A DNA stretch of 64,000 nt. Source: Eublepharis macularius (Eukaryota > Chordata > Lepidosauria > Squamata > Eublepharidae). The stretch spans positions 23,456,001 to 23,520,000 of the forward strand of contig NC_072801.1 of the NCBI RefSeq assembly GCF_028583425.1. Reading direction: 5' to 3'. A model generated the notes under the pieces. It saw nothing but the letters and a program-made list of their open reading frames with translations, had not been told where the DNA came from and searched no databases. This document shows, piece by piece, positions 39,541 to 55,500 of the stretch (its first letter is position 1; each line of letters opens with the position of its first letter). A program made the position numbers and the translations under genes.

Positions 39541-39578
39541 TGGCTGTTGTGGGTTTTCCAGGCTGTATTGCCGTGGTC
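39541..39578 (-). repeat. Inverted terminal segment of the Penelope-like element (left)
   Basis: TGGCTGTTGTGGGTTTTCCA and CTGTATTGCCGTGGTC are the reverse complement of 40812-40850, with two differences. Confidence 0.85.
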
Positions 39579-40749
39579 AGCACCCCACAAACCTAGTGTA
39601 TGGTTCTGGTTTGTGGATGATACATTTATCATTTGGAGCCATGGGGAGGAAGAATTGATGGGGTTTTTGAATCATCTCAACAACATCCACCTGAACATAC
39701 AATTCACAATGGAGAAAGAAATCGAGGGAAAACTCCCATTCCTGGATACCTTGGTCATCCACAAAGCAAACTTTCAGTTAGGTCACAAGGTCTACAGGAA
39801 ACCAACTCACACTGATCGGTACTTACACAAAAACTCCAATCACCACCCCTGATAGAAAAGAGGCATAATGAAAACATTAGTGGATCGTGCAAGACGGATA
39901 TGTGAGCCGCACTTTCTCAATGAGGAAATTAATCATCTAAACCACGCACTTCAGGCAAATGGCTACTCCAGAAATGAAATCCGAAGAGCAATCAAACCCA
40001 GGATGAATCAAACAACCAAGGAAAAACAGTCTCCTACAGGAAAAGTGTTTTTGCCATATATCAAAGGAATTACTGATCAGATGGGAAAGCTTATGAAAAA
40101 GCATAACCTTCAAGCAGTATTCAGACCCACCCGAAAAATACAACAGATGCTACGATCAGCAAAAGACAGTAGAGACCCCCTCACCTCTGCAGGAGTATAC
40201 CGTATACCCTGCAGCTGTGGACAAGTTTACATCGGGACCACAAAGCGTAGCATCCAGACAAGAATAAAAGAACATGAAAGACACTGCAGACTTGGACAAC
40301 CTGAAAAATCAGCAGTGGCTGAACATAGCCTAACTCAAACAGGGCACAGTATCTTATTCCAGGACACCAAAATACTGGACAACACTTCCAACTACTTTGT
40401 CAGACTGCACAGGGAAGCCATTGAAATTCACAAGCATAAGCAAAACTTCAACAGGAAAGAAGAAACCTTAAGAATGAACAGAGCATGGGCTCCGGTTCTG
40501 AAAAACACCAGGCCAACAAAACATTCTATCCCCGGCAATAGCCCTGCAGAGAAGATTAGCACATCAAGTACCAATCGATATGCAAAAGAACCTCCTCAGG
40601 ATACAGTGAAGCCTCCCGCCATTAGCATTCCACACCCTGGGAAACTCTTACAGGATGACTCAGCTCAACCCCACCCCTCCTGAGTAGATACAAATGACCT
40701 ACATCTTTTCCACACTGTGACACTGAGAGATCTCTGTCTTTTGGTGCTA

Positions 40750-40795
40750 CACCTCTGAAGATGCCAGCCACAGCTGCTGGCGAAACGTCAGGAAC
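40750..40795 (+). ncRNA. Hammerhead-ribozyme-like motif in Penelope-like element
   Basis: CTGAAGA (40755-40761) is followed by T, a 6-bp stem GCCAGC/GCTGGC (40763-40768 with 40776-40781), GAAA (40782-40785), C and GTC (40787-40789). CCT before the core pairs with AGG after it, as stem I would. Penelope-like elements are known to carry minimal hammerheads. The extra T before stem II is unlike the canonical core, so activity is uncertain. Confidence 0.5.
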
Positions 40796-40811
40796 TACAA
40801 TGCCAAGACCA

Positions 40812-40850
40812 CAGCAATACAGCCCGGAAAACCCACAACAGCCATTGTTC
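40812..40850 (+). repeat. Inverted terminal segment of the Penelope-like element (right)
   Basis: ACAGCAATACAGCCCGGAAA and ACCCACAACAGCCAT, the inverted partner of 39541-39578. Confidence 0.85.
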
Positions 40851-40859
40851 TCTGGCCGT

Positions 40860-41765
40860 GAAAGCCTTCAACAATACAAATTAAATGATGCTTTTTATAA
40901 ACACACACACACAACGGATCAGTGTCATCACTTCCCTCTGAGAGACAGTAAATGAGGCTTGGGTAAAAGCAGAAACAAACTCCAATAGCAGCAACGCTTC
41001 CTAAATGAGGCCATTCCCCACCACCACCCATGTATGGAAGCAAGCCAGTTGGGAAAATCTGATGTCAGTTCACTTCAAGTGCCGTGCAGAAAGCATCGAG
41101 TCAAACTCACACCTGGCTGTTCTCCGCAGGTTCCGGATTCAAAGCTGCCTGGAAACCCCAGAAGGAAGACTGCCATCCAAGATGAAACATCCGTCTTTTA
41201 AAGAATTGGGGATTCTCCATCAAAGGGCCAGGCTGACGTCTGTTGCTGCCCTAGGCAAACTAAAAGATATTCCTCTCCTCCTGGTTTTATTGGAGAACAG
41301 CAGCTGTGGCACACTGCTGTGATCAAAAGTAAGTTGTGATACAGCTGGCCTCATTTTTAACTCCTCCCTTTTGCAAACATGTATCTAATAGCCACCATCC
41401 AAATCAAATAATCCACAAAAGGGAATGTAAGGTAAATATGAAAAGTAAAACAAAATCACAGGATAAAATAAAATCAAGGAAGGATAAAAAAAATGTCAAT
41501 ATCTCAACAGAACTTGGTTGCTGTTTGGTGTTGCCTAGGCAACCAAGAAAGCCAACCAAGATCTCATGATGCTATCTTGCAAAATCTTAGCAGCTATTTT
41601 GAGCTGCGGGTGCGGGCAGAACTCAGAGCAAAAGAGGAGAAAGCAAGGATGAGGGGATTTCCTCTGTCCTGGGAGTCCTCAAATCTTCCCCTTAAGTGGT
41701 CAACCTGTGTCTGATGTAACACTTCAAACTGCATGCGAGATACTAAATTCTCCTCTGTACTAAGA
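40860..41765. other. Intergenic, nothing recognised
   Basis: A short (AC)n run at 40902-40913; otherwise unique-looking. Confidence 0.4.
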
Positions 41766-41767
41766 AA

Positions 41768-41866
41768 AATGCTCTTTGCACACAGAAAACTAACATGCCA
41801 GGAGAAAGGCTGTTCTGGAACCTCTCTCCCTGGCATGCTAGTTTTCTATGTGCACAGAACATTCAT
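41768..41866. mobile_element. Short fold-back MITE
   Basis: TGCACACAGAAAACTAACAT faces ATGCTAGTTTTCTATGTGCA. A shorter relative is at 31366-31440 (CACACAGAAAACTACCATGT facing ACATGCTACTTTTCTAC). Confidence 0.65.
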
Positions 41867-42419
41867 TTTTGTACAGAAGCACATTTCCATCATGTCAGCC
41901 CACACCTGCATCCCTGTGCGGTCTGGCCCAGATGCAGCAAGTATCTGTGTGTCTGTGCCATGATCCATAGAGGGAGATCAAAGGACACCCCCTGTATCCC
42001 TTGCAAATGCAAAGCTGGTGAAAGCAGATTCCTTAGAAGTTTGGAGCCAAAGACCCAGACTGTCTGTAGCAACTCTTTTGCTAGAGTCCAAGATTTTCTT
42101 CAAGGCACGTACCCATTCCCATCTGATACTGGGAAACATTTGCTAAGTCCCACAATTGTAAATGGTATTGCTTAAGTTTTGGATGGCCCTTATTTGAATG
42201 GGTTCCTTCCATTGTGTTTATGAACTATCCTTGCCTGAGTACTGCTTCTAGTGGGGGGAACTTGTTTGTCTTTAAAGTGCTACTGGACTCAGATTTTGTT
42301 CTATTACTACAGATTAAAATGGCTAGCCACCTGAAACTAATTCTAGGGGAATTACGGTGTATTTTAATACCTTTTAATTGATCTCATAAGCATATTTGGA
42401 GGGTATTTTTATAAGAGTT

Positions 42420-42590
42420 TTTGTCATGAAGTCACAGCCTACTTACGGTGACTCAGTAGGGTTTTCAAGGCAAGAGAGGTTCAAAGGAGGCTTGCCTGCC
42501 TGCGCATACTGACCCTGGACTTCCATGGTGGTCTCCCATCCAAGTACTAACCAGAGCTCACCCTGCTTATTACCCAAGATCCAGTGGCAT
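42420..42590 (-). repeat. 5S rRNA-derived SINE, minus
   Basis: GGTCTCCCATCCAAGTACTA and CACCCTGCTTATTACCCAAG are the 5S promoter region in reverse. TTTTCAAGGCAAGAGAGG is the shared body. Confidence 0.75.
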
Positions 42591-42904
42591 AGTGTGGGAG
42601 GGGCCAGAGGGGCGGCCGCCCTGGGCACAAAATTATTAGGGAGTGCCAGCCACCGAGGAGAGCCTGCGCCACGTGCGTGGGAGCCAGGAGGCCACCTGCA
42701 CCACCCTGGCTGCCCACCATGCTGACAGGGTAGCCAGCTTGCTGGGCGCTGAGCTGGCCCTCCGTGGCTGCTGGCCAAGGAGCACACCAAGTGGGTGGCA
42801 GCAATGCGGGCGGCTGCAGTGAGCGGCTGTGGTGGAGAGGTAAGGGGTGAGGAGGCAAGCGGCTCCCAAATCGCGGGAGCGCTCCCGAGGGGGGCAAGCA
42901 GCTG

Positions 42905-43600
42905 TGGCAATATGTTCAAATGTTGATAAGTTTATAAGATCTTCAATCCAGTGATTTACAGGAGGTGGACCTTTATCTTTCCAGTGTTGAAGTATAAGTC
43001 TTTTAGCAACTGTAAGGGCACAGAGGTTCCATTTCTGTTGACCATCAGTTAGATTTCAAGAGACAGGCAAGTAGTTTAAGAGTGTATTAACATCCTCAGA
43101 AATAAATGAGTTTTCTAACACAGAATTAATATAACTAATAATTTCCTCCCCAAAGGGCTGAATGACTAAACATGACCAAAGCATATACTTAAGAGATCCA
43201 TTTTGTGAATTACACCATCAACAGACACTGCGCTTAAACCTTTAGTAAAAAGATGCTGTGGTGTCCAATATACCCTTAATATATTTTTTTTTGCTGATTA
43301 AATCGCAACTTAAGATCCATAGTAGCAACAGGTATATGACTTAAGTCCTTATGCTGTTGCTGTAGCAAAACTGGACATTCCAGGTTATTATTCCATGCAT
43401 CTCTAAGATTCTGTGTATCATATTTATTAATCAACTTCTAATATTTATATACAAATATTGTAGATTTTGCTTTCTGCATTGATTCAATAAGAATCTCCAA
43501 AAGTGGGGGAAATTCTGAAGCACTCAAAGCTGCCGGACCATATTTGGTCACCAAAAAATGTTGCAATTGTATATATTGCCATTTGGCAAATCATATTTCC
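42905..43600 (-). mobile_element. L1-type LINE, ORF2 C-terminal piece, minus
   Basis: The minus strand reads YLKYMLWSCLVIQPFGEEII, then QQKWNLCALTVAKRLILQHW and GPPPVNHWIEDL, the C-terminal pattern of L1 ORF2 (aromatic block, then AKRLI--HWK). Stops and frame breaks show it is old. The low-coordinate border is near the GC-rich block that ends at 42904. Confidence 0.65.
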
Positions 43601-43624
43601 CAACCCAGAGTTGGCAACCCTAGG

Positions 43625-45240
43625 TAACAAGTAACCATGGTGATAATAACCCTAACTGATTAAGGTCTCCTAGCTGGGGGACCTAATTTAAAAAATGCAT
43701 GCGCAAACCTCCACATTCCCTCTGTCTTAATCTCTGTGCTGAAAAATAATATATACATCACCCCATTTCAAGAAAGTGGGCTTAAGTTCATGGTATCCCA
43801 GTGACACCTATGTTCTGCTTTGCCAAGAGAATGAAAAAAAAATTGTGATGAGCCAGTTTTGGGTAAACCCCCCTACAAAAAAAGGAATGTACTACCCCCC
43901 CTCCCACCAACTCAAACCAAATATTAACATTTTTGGGTGAAAGGAAACACCTGCAAGACAAATTTGATCACAAAGGTTAATGGAAAGAAACATTCCAAGC
44001 TGACAGAAGACATTATCCTCATTGGCCACGCCTGCCATTTTGGTATAGAAACTGTATTCTGGGTCATCAACCTGTCATTTGATGGGGGAGAAAATGTGTT
44101 TAGTTTTAACGACATTAACTTCTTCTGAGATTTGTAAAGCCGTTTACACTCCATGCATAGTCCACTCAAAATATATGTCAGGTACCGTATGCATGAAATA
44201 CTAAAGGAATCCATCAACTGTCAAAGGCTGCTCTTACGGTTAATGGATGAGCCCTATACTTCACTCCGGCACAGAGACAATGTAAAGGCTGATCTGCCCC
44301 TGGGCAGGTTTTAAGTCTCTGGTGGACAGTGCAATTAATCCCTCCTTGTGACAAACACATTTTTTCTTGTCATGAGTAGGTGATCCAGCATCAGGAAAAG
44401 GGAAGACAGACATGGTGGCAACTACACTTTTCTGTAAGCCTCATGTGGACCCTTTAGAACTGATCTATCCATGATACAGACGGAGGTGGTAGATTGAGGA
44501 GGGGTGGGATGGGAACGGAATTCTGAAATCTGCCGTGTCAGAACACAGTGAATAGTACAAACAGCACCATTTGTTCCTTTGCAGGGGGGGAAAACTCCAT
44601 GCATGCAGAAAACTAGCACACAAGGATGGAAAGTTCTACACTTTCTTATTTATCCTGCCTACTTCCAAAGTGCTCAGGGCAGCGTATACAGCTCTCCTGT
44701 CCTCCATGGATGAGGAAGAGTACTAAGAGGCCCAAGACTGGCCCATATGTTATATGGTAGATTGGAACTGTCTCAGTCCAGGGCTCTAAGCGATGCACCA
44801 CACTGGCCTACATGGGTAGTTTTCCATTTGTAGGGAGCTATAAGCCCCTTTCTGCATCAAAAGTGATGTACTCTCCCCCCTCAGGTAGGGTTGCCAGCCT
44901 CCAGGTAGTAAGCAGAAATAGCAGGGAAGACCCGGATAGTAGTGGCTAGAAATAACAAGTCCGGGAATATACCGTTAGCCAACAATTAAATTGTATAATA
45001 TTCTTTTTTAAATAAGTGCAAAGTGCAAAAGTGCCAAAAGTGCCTTAATAAATATACAATTTCAATAAATACAATTATACACAATACTCTTCCTATGTCC
45101 AAGTTGTTATGGTAAACACTTATATCCAACAAGACTGTAGTAAACGCCACAATGGGCACACTCATAAAAGTCACAGAGCTAGGAGAAGAGGTGACTCCAG
45201 TCCAATCCTAGTTGCAATAATCTCCAAAGATGTGCCGACG
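43625..45240. other. Intergenic, few recognisable parts
   Basis: One end of a GTTGCCA MITE is at 44884-44910. The rest is not assignable. Confidence 0.35.
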
Positions 45241-45259
45241 GGATTATGCAGGCATATTA

Positions 45260-45300
45260 GACAATTCCCGTTTCGTGTATATAACACTTCTTCTGGGCAC
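45260..45300 (-). ncRNA. Degraded hammerhead-like core in an unclassified repeat
   Basis: On the minus strand CAGAAGA (45295-45289), one A, a 4-bp stem GTGT/ACAC and GAAA (45274-45271), then C and a later GTC. The second core base is A rather than T, and no stem I is visible. The layout copies the one at 40755. Confidence 0.25.
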
Positions 45301-45631
45301 AATTAAAGCTGGACTTTTTTGAGAACTACTGGAATTGTTGTGGTTATATTAATTTCCTCCTAGGATTCAGTCATTGACAGAACTCAACGTTGGGGCTCAC
45401 TGAGGATTGAGCTGCAAGCCATGGGCCTTTGTCTGCAGATTCACATCTTTTGTCTCACCCAAGCTTTGTAGGGTACAGCTTCAAATCCAAAGGACATTCT
45501 AGAAACAAGTCCACAAGAACAGGCCCCAGTCAGAGACAAGAAACTCCATTCCAAACACAGCACCAAGGTCAGTAATGAGCTGACAAGTTGCTTCCACTAC
45601 AGCTGACAAGTTGCTTCTTGCAGCTGTAATG

Positions 45632-45734
45632 GAGAGCCAAGCTGTAAAACCAGGATGCCTACATTTCCCATCAAAACTTGAGGTAAGCTGACAAGTGTCC
45701 AACCTGTGTAAGGCGTCACTTGTAGCTTGGCTCT
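45632..45734. mobile_element. Half of a fold-back MITE (AGAGCCAAGCTACAAG family)
   Basis: GAGAGCCAAGCTGTAAAACC, TCCCATCAAAACTTGAGG and CACTTGTAGCTTGGCTCT match the right half of the element at 56012. Confidence 0.7.
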
Positions 45735-45784
45735 ATAACTCTGGGCCTTTCTCAAATACTGACAGACAGTACTAATGAAAGAGG

Positions 45785-47383
45785 CCATACCTTGGACTTA
45801 ATATTTTCCACTGAACTTTTGAGGAAAAGTCTTGTTTCAACATTGAAGATTCGGTCTGAACTGTGGACAGACCATCATTTGAAGGCAAAAGTGAATATAG
45901 CCCTCAAAGGGTGACCAGTTAAAATGATTCCACAAAGGCTCATGGATCCTTCTGGGTTCCAAAATGCCTTGAGGGATTTTAGAATTCCAGGCGCATGTTC
46001 TACAGAGGCTGCTGTAGGAGCTTGGAACGTGAAGCTATTGATGCCCTTGATCCTTGCTGACTCCTTGGGACAGAAGCCAGCCCCATGGTTTGCCATGGAG
46101 CTGGGTGACCTAAAGAGGGTTGGAAGATGCCTTGAAAGATGCTGGCAGAAAACTCGCACTGTAACTGTTAGATGGTGCTACGGAACCCACTGGGGGACCC
46201 ACGAAACGGAAATGAAAACTGCAAAGAAACGTTATTTCTTGGCAACTATTGCACCAGCTAGTTCACGACCATCCCAATTGTTCAAGGTATCTCATCATCC
46301 TCTGACTCCTAAATCTGAATATTTACTGCGTCAAGAACAGACAATTAGCTGTGAGGCCTTTGCAATGTTTCCCCCCCAATAAAATAGCACGAATACGCTT
46401 TGATCCGGCTGTTGGCTGTAATACAGATGAAATGGAAGAAATACTTAATACACCGTCTGGCTCACGTGTGGACTGCTTTGAACCAGTTACAATGAGAGAT
46501 CTTAACAGGGTCCTGACTTCTGTGAAGGCCACTATTTGTGCACAGGCTCCTTGCCCATCCTGGATGTTAAAATCAAGCAAGGACCACATAAATGAACCAC
46601 TGAGGTCAATTGTAAATCAATTGCTCACTCAAGATACTTTCCCCCGGCTGCTCAAACAATCCATCCGCTAATTAAAAAACCATCCCTAGACAGAAATGTT
46701 GTGGCCAATTATCATCCAGTCTCTAATCTGCCCTTTCTGGGGGCAAAGTGATTGAGAGAGCAGTAGCTGACCAACTACAGGTGCCTCTAGTGCTCTGGAC
46801 CTATTTCAGGCTGGATTCAGAACTGGACAGAAACTGTTCTAGTAGCTTTATTGGATGATCTCTTTCTGAATATTGACAAAAGCCATGCCTTGTTATTGCT
46901 CCTCCTGGATCTATCTGCTGCCTTTGACACAGTACACCATGCCATCCTGTTGAGGTGTTTGGAGGCAGAAGTGGGCATCAAAGTATGTGCCTTGGACTAA
47001 ATAATTTCTCATGGAATGGACTCAAAGGATTTCCATCGGAGATCATCTCCAGGATAGGAATTACCTTGCAGGGTTCCACAGGGTGCAATCTTATCTCCCA
47101 TGTTATTCAACCTTCATGTAACGCCTTTAGGAGAACTCATCCACATCTGTGGAGTGGGATGCCATCAATATGCAGATGACACTCAACTCTGTATCGCACT
47201 ATTGAAATCACCACAGGATGCAGTAGAAATCTTAGATCACTGCCTGACAGCCATGGTGAAATGGCTGAAAACAAATAAACTGAAATTGAACTCAGACAAG
47301 ACAGAAGTGATGCTGGTTGGGAAGACAGACATCTTGAAGGACATTGTACTCCCCACTTTCAATGGGAGGTCGTCTGACCCTTG
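45785..47383 (+). mobile_element. L2-clade LINE, partial ORF2
   Basis: The frames include the endonuclease end (DLIF and a W-DHH-like stretch near 45870), VKATICAQAPCPSWMLKSS near 46530, LLLDLSAAFDTVHHAILL near 46905, GVPQGAILSPMLF-type sequence near 47070 and the catalytic HQYADDTQL near 47163-47190. This order is that of an L2/CR1-type reverse transcriptase. Several frame breaks and stops separate the blocks, so it is not functional. It ends abruptly at a second Penelope-like piece. Confidence 0.85.
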
Positions 47384-48500
47384 CAGACTCAATTAAAAGC
47401 CATGGGGTACTCCTGTACTTAAGGTTCTTGAATGACATCTTCATCATTTGGACCCATGGGAAGGAGGCCCTTGAGAGATTTCACCAGGACTTCAACAACT
47501 TTCACTCCACCATCAACCTGACCACTCTACACAACAGGTACACTTCCTGAACACCACTGTACAAGTACATAATGGACAGATAAAGATCACTTTATACCAA
47601 AAACCCACTGACCGATACTCATATCTACATGCCTCCTGCTACTACCCAAAACATACCACTCGGTCAATTGTCTACAGCCAAGCCTTACATTACAATCGTA
47701 TTTGCTCCATTGCTCTTGATCAGGACTCTCACTTAAGAGATTTACAACAAGCATTTTGGGGGCTACAGTACCCACCAAATGAGATGAAGAAACAAATCGA
47801 CAGGGCTAGACTAGTACCCAGAAACAGCCTACTCCAGGACAAACCAAAAAGAACCAAAAGAACACCACTGGTTGTCACCTATAGTTCCCAGCTCAAACCT
47901 ATCCAACGTATCATCAGTGATCTACAGCCCATCCTGGAAAACGATGCCTCTCTCTCACAAGCCCTGGGTGGAAGACCTCTCCTTGCCTACAGACAGCCCC
48001 CCCAACCTTAAATAACTTCTCACTAACAACCATGAACTGGCTAACAGAGTCACCGACACATGAACCAGACCCTGCAACAGACCCAGACGCCAACTCTGCC
48101 CACACGTCTACCCAGAAAATACGATCACAGGACCCAATGGTGTCAACTACACAATCTCTGGCTCTTACAGCTGCTTATCCTCCAATGTGATATATGCCCT
48201 CATGTGCCAACAATGCCCATCTGCTCTGTACATAGGACAAACCAGCCAACCTCTGCACAAAAGAATAAATGGACACAAATCTGACATCAAAAATGGCAAT
48301 ATCCAGAACCAGTAGGAGAACACTTAAATCTACCAGGACACTTCATCAAAGACTTAAAGACTACCAAAGTTCAACAGAAACATTTCAAAAACAAAATCCA
48401 ATGGGAAGCTGCTGAATTGGAATTCATATGTAAATCTGACTCAGTCAGACTTGGATCGAATAGAGACTCTGAACGGTTATCTCATTATCAGAAGTAACTG
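47384..48500 (+). mobile_element. Second Penelope-like element (Neptune-type), degraded
   Basis: RT palm remnant FLNDIFIIWTHGKEALERF (near 47427), then KKQIDRARLVPRNSLL, and a GIY-YIG endonuclease YALMCQQCPSALYIGQTSQ (near 48190-48245) followed by KRINGHKSDI and a REAIE-like end. The cysteine-rich stretch before the endonuclease (PCNRPRRQLCPH) is Neptune-like and absent from the element at 39541, so the two are different lineages. Multiple breaks. Confidence 0.8.
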
Positions 48501-48579
48501 CCTTCAGGCATTCCAGTCAGATTCAGCAATAGAGGGAAGGAGTCACACCCAGCCTGGATTGCGCGCTCCACCTCTTTCA

Positions 48580-48935
48580 GTCAGTCAGTAACCTTTTATT
48601 GGCATTCAATTAAAAAAAAAACAATTTACACGAAGAGAGACAGAGACAAGGTACAACAAGATCAGACGGCAGTAGAATTAACCATGTACTCCCTAATCCA
48701 CATGGCAATTGAGAGGTACAATGTAACCGTATAAGTGGTATGGGAGCACTGGTTGGATAGTAACAAAAAAACTAACCTTCTGTCAGATTGACCCTGTAAG
48801 GTTATATAATAAAGGGCTAATCAAGGAGTCCCGCACATGAACATAAAAGTCACAATAAAATAAAACATGAATTGCTTATTCAGGTTGTCTCCTTCCGCAG
48901 GGACAGAGTCTTTTAAGATAGGGCGTATTTATAAA
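48580..48935. repeat. Unclassified repeat, left part
   Basis: CAGTAACCTTTTATTGGCAT and an A10 run look like a LINE 3' end. The hAT element at 48936 appears to interrupt it, and the likely other part runs from 49709. Confidence 0.35.
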
Positions 48936-49700
48936 TAGACATGGGCACGAACCGCATTACAAACCAATAAAACCCACGAACTGCCTGATTATCAGTTCGC
49001 GAACCGGTGGTTCATGAGGGTCCCTGGCCAACGAACCAGCGTTCGTTTGAAGCCCGGTTCGTTGCGTTCACCCGTGGTTCGTGAAGCCAGACAGTCAGGC
49101 ACAAGCAATCAATTCCCTTGGAAACAGAGCTGGGGGAATGCCTGAACTCTGTCTGCACTCCTTCTGTCGCCCTGGAAACCCGAATCGAAGTTCAGCTTAC
49201 CTTGATCGGCAGGTCTTCCTTTCAACCATGGAGGTGCAAATTGGTTACAATTGGTGACATGGGAGAGGACACCCGGGGGGAGGGAGGGGGAAGGGGGTGT
49301 TCTGTAGTAGCCATGGACACTTCAATCTCATCCCTGCAAACCCTGATAGGCAGTTCTGACGGCCAAACCCTTGTACACTGGGCCAACGTCAACTGGTGGC
49401 TCTAATTGTATTGAATGGGAGTTTCCTGGGGGCTTTGGATTGGAGAGGGTATAACTCCAAGATCCCTATTGCAATCTTGACCAGACTTGGGTGCTGGCTG
49501 GAGGAGAGCCTGCTAAACACTCCCTGGGAATATGGGCTCTCTAAGTCCAATGGGGGCCATTCTGACGCCCACAAACCACGAACCTCGAACCGGTTTGGCA
49601 ACAGGAGAAGTTCATTGTGGTTCGCTGGTTCAGGTTCATCGTCGGCACCGAACCACGAACTGCTGGTTCATTAAATTTTTTTGGTTCATGCCTATGTCTA
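48936..49700. mobile_element. hAT-type non-autonomous transposon, TAGACATGGGC family, 765 bp
   Basis: Ends TAGACATGGGCACGAACC and GGTTCATGCCTATGTCTA are inverted and lie between exact 8-bp repeats TTTATAAA (48928-48935, 49701-49708). It is dense in GTTCG/CGAAC motifs, as is its relative at 11592. No transposase frame. Confidence 0.92.
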
Positions 49701-50084
49701 TTTATAAATCTCCCTAACAGAATTTCAGAGGGTAAAACGTTAAAACGAGCGAGCATAAAAGCTCGGCGAAACTGGGGGAAAGTCAACAATGAGAGGTAAG
49801 TGACAGGGGTTCTGTACTTAGGAGTGATTCCGAACTCCAGCGGGGAGCAGGTCTACTGTGCAAGAGAACAGAGAGTTTGCCTATCGATATCTAGCAGCCT
49901 TTGTTTTAGGAATCTATATGCTTGACTTTCAGTTAACATTAGGAGGGAATTAAAAGAGATCCCTATAGACTGTAATTTTCTCAGGCTGTACTGTAGGTAG
50001 CTTGTTTCAAAGAGATGCTGTAGGGACCGCAGATTTCACCACTATGTACTATTTATTGCCTTATGTCCTATCTGTTGTCCTATC

Positions 50085-50340
50085 TGTTGCTTTAAATATC
50101 ATCCTACTGGGTAGTTCTAGGTTGTTTAATGTCAGTCTTAGATTTGCTTATGCTCTGTTTCAGCATTTTTTTCAACTTTGTATTGGATTTTTGCTGATGC
50201 GATATCTTTGTAAATTTGCATTTATGTGCCCAATGACATTGTTTATTGAAATGTCCTTGATATTGTCTGCACTAATCTCACACTATGTAATCTGCCTTGA
50301 GTCTCAGTGAGAAAGGTGGACTATAAATGTCATAAAGAAA
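50085..50340 (+). repeat. L2/CR1-type LINE 3' tail
   Basis: TAATCTGCCTTGAGTCTCAG and GAGAAAGGTGGACTATAAAT are the typical end of reptile L2-type LINEs. Confidence 0.65.
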
Positions 50341-50801
50341 TTTAAAACATGAAAATCCTACCACTGCACTGTCTCTCACACCAGATAGGGAATATGGGTT
50401 TGTGAGGATTTGCAATGGAGGCCCTATCTCCCCTCGCAACTGACCACCATTCATGAAGGAGCATCACAACCCACCTTTCTCACTTTTGCATGCACTCAAC
50501 CAAAGAAGCACGTACGCTGGCCTTTGGGGCATTGACACAAAACAGAAGCATTCTCTAGACAGGAATTTCTTGTTGCTACAGGAGCCCTGAGTAACTTGGC
50601 ATTTAATGGCTCTATTCTAACATCCAGAGCCTTTTGTATGAGACCATTTAAGCTTGCGGAGGACAACATTCTCCCTATCAATCATGAGCAGAAGTCCAGA
50701 GTATGGGTCAGGCACATACTTTGGGAGGCTGGGGGGTATATTTTGGAAAGAGAAATCCACCCAGGTTATGATGACTTATATCAAGCTGGTTCTGGGTTTT
50801 T

Positions 50802-50932
50802 AATACAATACAATACAATACAATACAATACAATACAATACAATATAATATAATATAATATAATATAATATAATATAATATAATATAATATAATATAATA
50901 TAATATAATATAATATAATATAATATAATATA
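50802..50932. repeat. Pentanucleotide array (AATAC)n then (AATAT)n
   Basis: About 26 five-base units. The first third is AATAC and the rest AATAT, with one sharp switch near 50845. Confidence 0.95.
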
Positions 50933-50979
50933 TAAATCACACACACACCTACATGTGTGATTCATGAAGAAAAGAAAAT

Positions 50980-51105
50980 GACTCATGTCTGAAGAAGGGA
51001 GCTCTGACTCTCAAAAGCTTACACTCTGAAAATCTTGTTAGTCTCCAAGGCGCCACTGGACTCAAATCCTGCTGTTCTACTACAGACCAACAAAGCTACC
51101 CGCTT
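50980..51105 (+). repeat. Interspersed repeat with hammerhead-like core
   Basis: CTGAAGA (50989-50995), A, a 5-bp stem GGGAG/CTCTC, then AAAA. The tail is TCTCCAAGGCGCCACTGGAC and CTACTACAGACCAACAAAGC. Related worn copies: 52640-52850 (CTTATGA core) and 42250-42335 (tail only). Confidence 0.5.
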
Positions 51106-51759
51106 AAAGAACAAGGTACCCTCGATAGTTATACATTACAAAACCAGCCCTGTTCAACCATCACAAAGACTAAACAGTACCTGGGCCAAAACACCAGCCA
51201 CAGAGAAAGCTGTAAGGTATGACCTACATAAAAAGTGAAGAAATCAAATGGAAAACATTAGCGAGAAAGTCGAAACATGTTTCTGAGGGATTAAATTTGT
51301 TCAGGAGTTCCAGAATCACCTCGAATGCAAAAGCTAAGACGCTCACTTCCAGTACCATACACGTGATTTAGGTCTTAGAGTCCAGGAGCAATCCCAGACA
51401 CTCGGGTGCCCTGGAGTCCAGATGCTTACACCCATCCTCCTACTCAGAAATTAATCTTCCTGGGAACAAAACTGCACCCTGAGTAATACTAACTTCAGCA
51501 GTGCAAATAGCTGTGCTGGGCAGGGGGGGGCAAATTTTGCTATAAAAATATTAGGGGGGCTTGTATCTCTGGCTATGTAAAGGTGGGAAGGCTTACCTGC
51601 AATATGGCATAATGTGATCAAGAGTGCTGTGTGGGAGAGTTCTGTATCCCTGCCCCCAGACAGCATGAATAGCAGGGCCCCCCGCAATTAGAGACGGGGA
51701 AAGGAAGATCGGATCTCTCCCTGTTAGAGGTATCCACCATCCAGTTTTTTAAGTGGCAG

Positions 51760-51960
51760 GTTGCCTCCTATTAGTCAATTGCTACCATCTTGTGAATTTT
51801 TAAATATTTATACTGTATTCTTATTGTTTGGTTTTAACTGTTTTTAAAGTATAGATGTATTATGAATGTTTTTTATTGGATGTAATCCGCCGTGAGCCTG
51901 CCTGTGTCGGGGGGGGGGCGGAATAAAAATGGAAAATAATAAGTAATAATAATAATTAAT
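51760..51960 (+). repeat. L2/CR1-type LINE 3' tail
   Basis: TGTAATCCGCCGTGAGCCTG and GGGCGGAATAAAAATGG, then (AAT)n. Confidence 0.65.
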
Positions 51961-52399
51961 AATTTTGATCATGAAAATGGTACCTAATAAAAAAGTTATT
52001 CTCTCCTCCAAAAGAAACTGGCAGCCACCCAAATGCAGCACATTTTTTTTGTGTAAAAAATCAGGAGATTCCCCACCCCCCACCCCGACCACAATGTACA
52101 ATTTGGCCCTGAGTTCAGATCCGTGCCAAAAGGGCCCCAGGACTAAAAATGTCTAATCCCTTTTGCCTTTTCCTGCAGGACCTGTAACCTGAAACCTCCC
52201 CTCAACTTTCCAATCAAACTTTACAAACTGCTTAGACCACATTCTCCAGAAGTGTTTAAAGAGGGTGGGGTTATAGCTTTTATTCAAACGCCTCGCACAC
52301 ATTTGTGGCAATCGCAAAAAGAAATGGAAAGTTGGTGACGGACAACTGCGGCGTGCCAAGCCCCCCCATAAGGAGTCTGTGTGTGCATGTTAGCATGAG

Positions 52400-52594
52400 A
52401 TGGCATTGCTAACTTTATTTCTCTCTTATCCTGCGTTTGTTTGTCTCCTGTGCACGCTGATCTTTTTAGTCTCCTATTTTTCAACCAGCTCAGGAAAATC
52501 AGCTTTTAAATTGCCACCTGGTCCAAAGCCTCTGCCGATCATTGGCAACCTGCATTTGCTGGATATTAAGAGACAAGACAAATCCTTAATGAAG
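52400..52594 (+). CDS. CYP2W1: CYP2W1 coding exon 1 (membrane anchor and proline hinge)
   Basis: 195 bp, 65 codons, phase 0, from MALLTLFLSYPAFVCLL to RQDKSLMK. It has a hydrophobic anchor of about 25 residues, then KLPPGPKPLPIIGNLHLL, the usual CYP2 hinge. The donor is GTAGGA. This ATG is the only one giving a normal-length CYP2 N terminus. Confidence 0.93.
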
Positions 52595-55500
52595 GTAGGA
52601 TGAAAAATTGCTTTGCACAGTTATACTAGAGCAAGATTCGAATCCAGAAGCACCTTAAAGATCAACAAGATTTCCAGGGTATGAGCTTTTGGGACTCAAA
52701 GCTCCCTTTGTCAAATAGGAATTGATCATCAGATATCTTATGAAGGGAGTTTTGAGTCTTAAAAGTTTATACTCTGAAAACTTTGTTGGTCCTTAAGGTG
52801 GCTGTGTTGGTCTGTTCTTCTACTGCAAACCAACACAGCTGCACGTCTGTAGTTATACTAAACATCCCACTATTTAAATTCAATATGAATATTTTAATTT
52901 GGTTCCCCCCCCCCCTGATTAAGTTTGAATTACATTTCTGGGATATGTTTACATTAATGCAGAGTCATGCAATAGACTGCAAATACATTTTACTTAAAGC
53001 TCAACAGAATAGTTATTTCTTTGATGCATAGTGGGATTTTTAAAATGTATTTCATACAGTACCTCTAACGTTAAACAGGATTACTCAAGAGTAAATATAC
53101 AGAGAGCAGTGATGATTTTTTTTTTAAAAAAGGTAGTATGCAATAATTTTTCTTCCTATGTAATATACAACATATACGGTGCTTGTGAGATTTTAGTGTA
53201 CTAATTTGACAGTTTCTCTTCCCTGAAGACAAGGACAGTTTGCAAACAGCTGATGCCAGGAGAACATCTCCTGCAGATATCTATTTCCAGATAATAAGAT
53301 GCAAGAAATTAAGATACTGTTTGAACAAGAAACAAGAATTTTGGTTATTTACTATATTTGCTGATTTCGCACATGCTGGATAATGCACTTTCAATGCACT
53401 TTATCAATCATTTGAGGTGGATTTTTTGTTCCACACGCAAAAAAATCCATTCCAAATGATCTATAAAGAGGATTGGAAGTGCATTATCCAATGTGTGCGG
53501 AATGGCCCATACAGTGCTTTTTTTTTTTTTTTTGTAAAAACGAAATTGCTGGTACTCGTGATGTTTGCTGCCTTGGGAATCCTATTTGGGGGGAAAGGCA
53601 GCTCAGAAATGTTTTAAATAAATAACATAACATCATTCGGAATTTTTTATATTATAAACACTCTCATATAAATATACTTATTTACATTACTAGAAATCCA
53701 GGGAACAAGTTAAGGAGTAAACAGTTCACATTTCTTTTTCAGTTAGATGAGCAGACAATAAACAAAAATATCTTTTAACACAACTCAGTGAGACAAGTGA
53801 ACTATTCCTGATTATGATTTCTGGCTGCAACCAAACTGCTATCCCCACCTCTTAATCTAGCCAATGGCATCAGTTTAACGTACTAAATTTACTTGCCTGC
53901 AAGCTGGCAAAGAAGGTCACAGGGCAGGAGGCAGGCAGGTGAAGGCAGCGGGCAAGTGAGCTGGAAAAAATGCAGCCCATGTACACCGTCATGTCAGCTG
54001 GCCACGTTGGCTGCAGGACGTTGCTTCTCAATTGGCCCGGCCCCAGCAAAGATGATCCAAGCCCTGCCAGCCAAAAGAGGTGCCAGTATCCTGTACCACT
54101 GTGTACCCGCACAAAAAAAGCCCCTGGCTATATCTGTCATCCTTTTTCACTTTCAAGGCAGATTACACAGTGTAAATCCATGCAGCTGGTAGGATGAGAC
54201 ATCTAACAAGCAAGGTAATAGGGATAGTGCTACAGAAATCTGAAACCAAGCACAGAGGCTCTTCCCCCCTCAACAAACTCCTACTGTTTCACTAGTTGCA
54301 TTTTCCAGAACTCAGAGTGCAATAGATTTCAGCACCTTTAAGACTAACCAACTTTATAGCAGCATAAGCAAATACATCTTGCATCTGACGAAGAGAGCTG
54401 TGGTTCTCGAAAGCTTATGCTACTATGAAGTTGGTTAGTGTCTTAAAGGTACTACTGGGCTCTTTACTATTTTGTGACTACAGACTAACATGGCTAGCTC
54501 CTCTGGATCTATGATTGTGGAAAATGTCATGAAATGTAGGTATTATTGATGGTGAGTGATGCAAGGTGGATGGTATTTGTTTAAAGGGTGAGCTTGGGTG
54601 TGGTAAAGGTGCTTTGATGCACTTTGTGCACATGAGCAACAGTTCACTTCATATAATAATAAAGCCCCAACAAGTTGCAACTAGCTCATGGCAACCCCTC
54701 AGAGGTGGTTGGCCATTGCCTTCCTCTGCAGAGCAATCCCTGTCTTCCTTGGAGGTCTCCCACCCAAGTACTAACTATGGCTAACCCTGATTAGCTTCCT
54801 AGTTTGGGCTGGAGAAAGTCAAGGGAGTGTGCAAAGACACCCCCTTTGTGTCTTTCTCACCCCCAGCCAATTCTCACCCCCAGCCAATGAGAATCCAGGC
54901 TGCTTCTCTAAGTGCCACCCTACGGTCTGTTTCTTGGTCATGCCAGAGAGTGATGGAATGTCGGGAGAAGCTTTTATATAAGACCTAAGTATGTGATTTA
55001 ACGCCCCCCCGCCACAAACTGTTGCTATATAATATGTAACATTAGAGTTCTCCACTCCAGAGCTTATGTAACTTTCTCACAACATTGCAAACCATAATCA
55101 AGACTACCCTCTTCCCTTTACAGCAAAACTCCATGGGGTGTATGTGTTTGTGTGTCTTCCTAAGAAGTATATTATCCCTCTGCTGCAGTGGAGAACAGCC
55201 TGCAGTGGTTTAGAGGCAAACAAAAGGAAATATTGCTTCCTGCAACAGAGAGCGGGCTTGCAGAACAGACTGCCACCACCCTTCACTAGGGTTTCCACGG
55301 CTGGGTTGGGAATTCCTGGAGATTAGAGGGTGGAGATGGAACAGGGTGGGGTCTGAGAAGGGCCCCCATCAGGGATGGGATGCCAGAGTCTGCCATTCAG
55401 GGGAACTGATCCCTGTAGCCTGGAGATCAGTTGTAATTCCAGGAAATCTTCAGGCCCCACCAGGAGGTTGGCTGTCAGTCCTTGGCAGTTAGATCTCCAA

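Follow-up and report, generated by a model that had tools for sequence, protein, structure and literature searches.

Several short repeats in a 64,000-nucleotide (nt) stretch of the Eublepharis macularius genome (contig NC_072801.1, positions 23,456,001 to 23,520,000; hereafter the window) carry the same hammerhead-like hairpin, which raises the question of what these hairpins are and how the repeats bearing them came to be inserted. We consider it likely that the shared hairpin, lying close to the 5' end of Penelope-like element (PLE) transcripts, is a hammerhead of the minimal type I, and that the repeats called E1 (and, by analogy, E3) are transcribed PLE leaders inserted from uncleaved RNA, with the reverse transcriptase (RT) starting on a leader stem-loop. 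The hairpin layout reported in a first-pass annotation of the letters was recovered by a descriptor scan of the window, the shared order being CTGANGA, one extra base, stem II, GAAA and a stem III reduced to a palindromic stub. Exact matches were found at 40755, in a Poseidon-type PLE (CTGAAGA, extra T, 6-bp stem GCCAGC/GCTGGC, GAAA), and at 54385, in E1 (CTGACGA, extra A, 6-bp stem GAGAGC/GTTCTC, GAAA); 45295 on the minus strand was matched only with a relaxed core (CAGAAGA, extra A, 4-bp stem GTGT/ACAC, GAAA). At 50989, described as a worn copy, the core and a GGGAG/CTCTC stem are indeed present when read from the letters (the scan reached this place only via a different pairing), but GAAA reads AAAA, and the core of the decayed copy at 52737 reads TTATGAA, as had been suspected. 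The window held two one-extra-base matches, compared with a mean of 0.13 and a maximum of 2 in 100 dinucleotide shuffles. Because the shuffle maximum was also 2, the window by itself is only suggestive of a non-random hairpin; the copies found across the source genome (2.24 Gb, 72 contigs) make the structure convincing. The Rfam hammerhead models, proposed earlier as a check, gave no match in the window or in slices around 40755 and 54385, which we take as a limit of these models for forms without helix III. The CTGANGA..GAAA core together with stems I and II, as expected of a minimal type I hammerhead, was found in both E1 and the Poseidon-type copy, which are putative ribozymes. The extra base and the near-absent stem III, initially regarded as departures from the textbook core, are normal for this class: exactly one extra base is present in all four Poseidon hairpins found in the window and the loci examined, and reviews describe PLE hammerhead motifs as minimal and without helix III (PMC6155905, PMC7761336).

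Self-comparison of the window showed E1 to E4 to be mutually related, and a Neptune-type PLE fragment lies between them:

54331..54512, + strand: E1 copy, with an inverted arm (54331-54369) followed by the hammerhead leader and tail (sequence comparison, inverted-repeat search, genome copies)
54381..54420, + strand: E1 hammerhead, stem I GCAT/ATGC, stem II GAGAGC/GTTCTC, predicted cut after 54416 (descriptor scan, stem counts)
54434..54489, + strand: E1 downstream stem, GTTAGT..CT with AGACTAAC; the window copy carries a 2-nt insertion there (read from the letters; pairing counted)
50985..51110, + strand: E3 copy, sister subfamily of E1, sense arm only (sequence comparison)
52630..52845, + strand: E2 copy, head-to-head, with a decayed core, related to E3 (sequence comparison)
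42261..42327, + strand: E4, tail fragment without hammerhead (sequence comparison)
47398..48585, + strand: Neptune-type PLE fragment with RT end, endonuclease and untranslated region (UTR), the leader missing at this place (GIY-YIG E 0.00027; its 21.6 bits fall short of the 22.6 cut-off)

The suggested link to Penelope machinery was borne out by two genomic loci: E1 is joined to a Neptune-type PLE in one (L079), and in the other (L147, below) the 45295 repeat forms the terminal repeats of a different PLE, so that the term non-Penelope repeats fits neither. L079 has an open reading frame (ORF) with RT and GIY-YIG domains attached to the E1 unit, in the order inverted E1 arm, endonuclease ORF, 3' UTR, TATA, E1 hammerhead unit and tail to about the proximal end. 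Over 768 nt its ORF DNA shares 91.3% identity with positions 47819-48579 of the window, in the Neptune-type fragment whose endonuclease match falls just under the Pfam cut-off; CNRPRCQLC and CQQC, a possible counterpart of the cysteine-rich stretch expected between RT and endonuclease in the Neptune clade, were seen by eye in the L079 ORF. Direct terminal repeats around the ORF were not seen for E1, L079 being truncated. A TATA region lies upstream of E1 in L079, L120 and L142, each having the A of ATGC at nt 34 counted from the first T; neither the whole region nor its TATA end was found in any other locus examined, apart from a weak 28-nt match in L060 (E 0.044). The short E1 copies are without this region, and in most of them the first base lies about 33 nt past the place of the TATA in longer copies. 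An upstream TATAAAG occurs in 4 of the 28 E3 loci, where nt 32 is the A of ATGTCTG. As part of the reading that we consider likely, E1 would be the promoter-proximal leader of a Neptune-type PLE and not an independent short interspersed element (SINE), and E3 would, by analogy, likewise be a PLE leader. Of the two explanations offered earlier for these repeats, short elements mobilised by Penelope-type machinery or pieces of one family, the second fits better, E1 being the leader of an L079-type PLE and 45295 an L147-type repeat. The claim of at least three different repeat families holds for three independent PLE lineages, but the repeats at 54310, 50989 and 52737 are related subfamilies. A fragment of a non-PLE reverse transcriptase (47058-47393; RVT_1, E 4.1e-15) immediately precedes the Neptune-type fragment of the window.

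The ends of E1 insertions were read in two samples of genomic copies. The downstream-selected sample was obtained with unit positions 40-134 only as the query (40 scored of 3,220 first-look candidates; 39 examined after removal of the window copy), and the hammerhead-selected sample comprised 29 copies (L052-L080), L061 and L064 being common to both. In the former, sense arms started at unit 1-3 in 25 copies, at 5-8 in 4, at 12-24 in 6 and at 32-34 in 4, and 2 of the 25 (L120 and L142) run on upstream into the TATA region. None of these 39 copies, chosen on sequence downstream of the predicted cut (39/40), had a sense-arm start at unit 35-45. Since no start fell at the predicted cut, and since 25 of 39 copies reach unit 1-3, the probable transcript start, the inserted templates look uncut. 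Starts at 32-34, just after stem II, resemble what an RT stop at the hairpin would leave. At the other end, sense arms of the hammerhead-selected sample ended at 125-135 in 23 copies, at 91-95 in 5 and at 116 in 1 (for L079, the 3' end measured by script is the long one, found on the inverted arm), and inverted arms began at 90-99 in 21 of 29 copies of the downstream-selected sample. The 3' ends of E1 thus fall in two zones separated by about 39 nt, as expected of an optional tail between two RT start sites, and this spacing is close to the 30-40 bp tail of PAc, a Poseidon element of Anolis carolinensis (PMC11167929).

Head-to-head copies made up 29 of 39 and 22 of 29 in the downstream-selected and hammerhead-selected samples, respectively; a third sample, the query of which included the inverted arm, read head-to-head in 39 of 39 copies and was left out of this count. 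In E3, an inverted piece lay just upstream of the sense arm in 11 of 28 loci. The joints vary from copy to copy, and because they differ in this way they would have formed at insertion. E1 has both the inverted repeats and the target duplications expected of a PLE. Duplications scored at least 9 in 38 of 70 rows (the window copy is among the rows, and L029 and L077 represent a single locus), whereas only 0.7% of 691 mismatched flank pairs did so. At five diagnostic sites in 81 head-to-head copies, agreement between arms was 0.79 within copies, a value that none of 1000 shuffles attained, and 0.70 between copies, and about one fifth of the sites differ between the two arms of one copy. This intermediate result points to arms that share their ancestry or their age but are not fully identical.

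Partial hammerhead units are repeated in 7 of the 39 downstream-selected and in 9 of the 29 hammerhead-selected copies, and no tandem of whole units was seen in the copies read. Exact joints of the kind searched for numbered 2,187 genome-wide, against 0 for the reversed pattern, and among the matches listed (the first 100 joints) all lay on contig C1. Most of the listed 41-nt joints have GAC, or its CpG-decayed form, after GAAAGCT, which makes the base at the cut site a G; joints fall at unit positions 38, 42, 47 and 56. We read the tandem pieces as template jumps, and identical joints in some arrays would also allow expansion at the DNA level. Tandem partial units were observed beside E1 insertions at L052, L053, L061, L068, L073, L074, L113, L116, L119 and L124, with periods of about 41, 47 and 52 nt; an initial impression that they are confined to the inverted arm was rejected, since at L113 and L119 they stand in the sense arm.

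Taken as a mechanism, the leader would consist of the hammerhead followed by the stem-loop where reverse transcription starts. The PLE enzyme would start on this stem-loop and run to the 5' end of an RNA not cleaved by the ribozyme, giving complementary DNAs (cDNAs) of roughly 90-135 nt made from both target strands; the two cDNAs would then be joined, in some copies via the ATGCAT palindrome at the RNA start, and template jumps would add tandem hammerhead units. Short copies would probably be dead on arrival. Our preferred reading of the head-to-head copies is that two cDNAs meet in the middle, because cutting and extension of both strands by the PAc protein takes place in vitro (PMC11167929). 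In the alternative, put forward for rotifer PLEs (PMC3846280), an antisense PLE transcript would serve for self-priming. It would account for the perfect palindrome joints (4 of 39 and 7 of 29 copies) and for arms that are more alike within a copy than between copies, but most joints are not perfect palindromes, about a fifth of the diagnostic sites differ within copies, and the two-strand extension by PAc is again at odds with it, so that we regard self-priming as rather doubtful. Cleavage of the template before insertion is, in our estimate, very improbable. Some tandem joints do lie at unit 38, close to the predicted cut, but none of 39 sense arms starts at unit 35-45, the GAC after most listed 41-nt joints is constant, other joints fall at 42, 47 and 56, and PAc hammerhead mutants insert normally, with no RNA-seq ends at the cut (PMC11167929).

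E1 and E3 could also be independent non-autonomous elements, SINE-like or retrozyme-like, which borrow PLE proteins and move via self-cleaved, perhaps circular RNA. The copies are short, non-coding and represented by thousands of first-look candidates, some carry tandem partial units, and PLEs have been proposed as likely movers of animal retrozymes (PMC7761336); yet the E1 unit also ends a Neptune-type PLE, only L079, L120 and L142 among the loci examined have the TATA region, no sense arm starts at the cut, and the repeated pieces are partial, without whole-unit tandems. We judge this explanation unlikely. Virtually no weight is given to a foldback DNA transposon, which shares the inverted arms and target duplications with E1 but not the variable joints, the two 3' end zones, the single-arm copies and the starts at a TATA-spaced site. 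For E1 as a PLE leader inserted from uncleaved RNA, several observations count on the other side. The samples are the 40 best-scoring among thousands of candidates and not random, no inverted arm is present in 10 of 39 and 7 of 29 copies, perfect ATGCAT palindrome joints are as few as given above, and the arm agreement of 0.79 against 0.70 does not prove two independent templates. Only one long E1-type PLE copy (L079) was read, and no E3 copy joined to an ORF was found in the E3 loci, where the upstream TATAAAG was looked for and no ORF search beyond it was made. RNA folding of single copies, not used as evidence, beat most shuffles in only 1 of 6 stretches (L078, z -1.50).

The observation that stem letters change while pairing stays was upheld by stem counts (70 E1 rows, 28 E3 rows) and by an alignment (A2). 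Stem I pairs are TA, AT, CG and GC in E1 and TA, GC, TA in E3, followed by a fourth pair that is mostly A.C (paired in 9 of 28); position 5 of stem II in E1 is GT in 41, GC in 14 and AT in 10 rows, and the downstream stem changes from A-T to G-C between subfamilies. The repeats at 50989 and 52737 form a sister subfamily of E1 with compensatory stem changes. A2 contains 33 sequences (18 E1, 15 E3) hand-picked from 98 loci and the window, and leaves aside Poseidon, the 45295 hairpins, L046 and L068. Pairing is kept in 88.4% of its cells, double changes affect 29 cells, and covariation scores 0.333, values that none of 500 shuffles attained, and six slid registers were all lower than the true register on paired cells, doubly changed cells and covariation score. 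The numbers of doubly changed pairs (3) and pair types (9) in A2 were not above those of shuffles, and most of the stem change reflects a single E1/E3 split. A further subfamily was seen near L005 923 (minus) and downstream of the E1 unit in L080, with stem II GTGAG/CTCAC and the extra base kept (CTGAAGA A GTGAGCTGTGGCTCAC GAAA).

The remaining two lineages bear the hairpin in the following features:

39541..40879, + strand: 5'-truncated copy of a Poseidon-type PLE that begins with an inverted tail (39541-39578, at the 5' end); its ORFs have a weak T5orf172/GIY-YIG-like match below cut-off
40752..40792, + strand: minimal hammerhead with ATG at 40761-40763 and predicted cut after 40789; layout as in PAc (descriptor scan; PMC11167929)
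45150..45315, - strand: terminal-repeat piece of a third PLE family, whose hairpin has neither U4 nor the UC of the cut site (descriptor scan, genome copies)

In the Poseidon-type copy, the inverted tail is 94.9% identical to 40807-40845. The ORF starts at stem II, the extra base of the hairpin being the U of the ATG, and the predicted cut lies 26 nt past the start codon, which fits the Anolis PAc hammerhead (PMC11167929). Poseidon copies, the ends of which were read only from copies lying in flanks of other loci, have two end zones about 30 nt apart. At one locus (L133), Poseidon tail pieces and E1 pieces are joined directly, which may reflect cross-family template jumping.

For the 45295 family, 40 of 630 candidates were scored, and same-strand pairs of matches lay about 3.76 kb apart on contigs C3, C4 and C2. 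One of them, L147 (C4:92929150-92933400, 4,251 nt), has two identical 485-bp direct repeats reaching both ends of the stretch and, between them, ORFs of 256 and 751 residues, the longer with RVT_1 above the Pfam cut-off (E 5.3e-9) and GIY-YIG below it (E 0.003); RT and GIY-YIG are thus placed between direct repeats, as in a PLE. The family hairpin reads CAGA[A/G]GA, GTGT/ACAC, GAAACGGG, and does not have the full hammerhead core: U4 and, compared with Poseidon, the cut-site UC are missing in all five hairpins read (the window copy L144, L145, L146 and both L147 repeats). As all five carry CAGA[A/G]GA, the core at 45295 is family-typical and not worn. By hammerhead rules such a hairpin would presumably not cut. 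Beyond the point at which the window copy starts, L145-L147 run on into AT-rich sequence that is TATA-like about 32 nt upstream; in this one copy, its start would fit a transcript start. Sharp 5' ends for the family were considered and rejected, matches starting at query positions 5-8 because the window copy itself begins there. Since templates appear to be inserted uncut, and since the L147-type PLE with identical repeats keeps the hairpin and has lost the cut site, we tentatively suggest that the chief role of the PLE hammerhead fold may be that of a scaffold next to the RT-start stem-loop and not cutting, and that starts on the leader may yield a SINE-like population whose two-strand cDNAs join partly by palindrome.

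PLE hammerheads, inverted repeats and tails are already published. PAc resembles the elements described here in its minimal hammerhead without real helix III, in a cut 26 nt past the start codon that is identical in the Poseidon copy of the window, and in its two internal RT start sites, with both strands cut and extended and cleavage dispensable for insertion, hammerhead mutants still inserting (PMC11167929). In contrast to PAc, E1 and E3 belong to another PLE type with no ORF in the leader, and leader-only copies and tandem hammerhead units are not described for PAc in the available part of PMC11167929. Penelope of Adineta vaga shares head-to-head inverted repeats, a palindrome at the repeat 5' end, an optional 31-bp tail, TATA in the terminal repeat, 9-10 bp target duplications and a mention of solo repeats; it differs in its low copy number, and the word hammerhead is absent from the available portion of the text (PMC3846280). 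Animal retrozymes are likewise short non-coding elements with type I hammerheads and a weak helix III but, according to PMC7229834 and PMC7761336, form whole tandem units via circular RNA, whereas E1 repeats only partial units. No description of leader-only PLE copies in reptiles was found in the titles and abstract openings of the literature searched, and searches with element strings returned only papers unrelated by title. Minimal PLE hammerheads are said to cleave as dimers, reportedly from work by Lunse and others in 2017 and by Cervera and de la Pena in 2014. Relatives sought by pattern and BLAST in viral contigs, GTDB genomes, phages and plasmids were not found; two matches in phage-like contigs (L001, L002) were dropped, as they look like chance. 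Elsewhere in the window, two other long imperfect inverted repeats (53364-53503 with 64-nt arms; 41745-41886 with 58-nt arms) have no visible relation to the hairpins, and a coding stretch at about 52480-52595 is, by eye, a candidate for the first exon of a CYP2-type cytochrome P450.

The insertion mode of PLEs and the purpose of their hammerheads are called open questions in PMC11167929 and PMC7761336. Because E1-type insertions are short and can be aligned, and their ends, joints and target duplications can be read, they would allow two-strand priming to be tested against antisense self-priming on genomes, and they would also let cut and uncut templates be told apart in the same way. For repeat annotation, E1-type repeats that look like SINEs would be PLE leaders.

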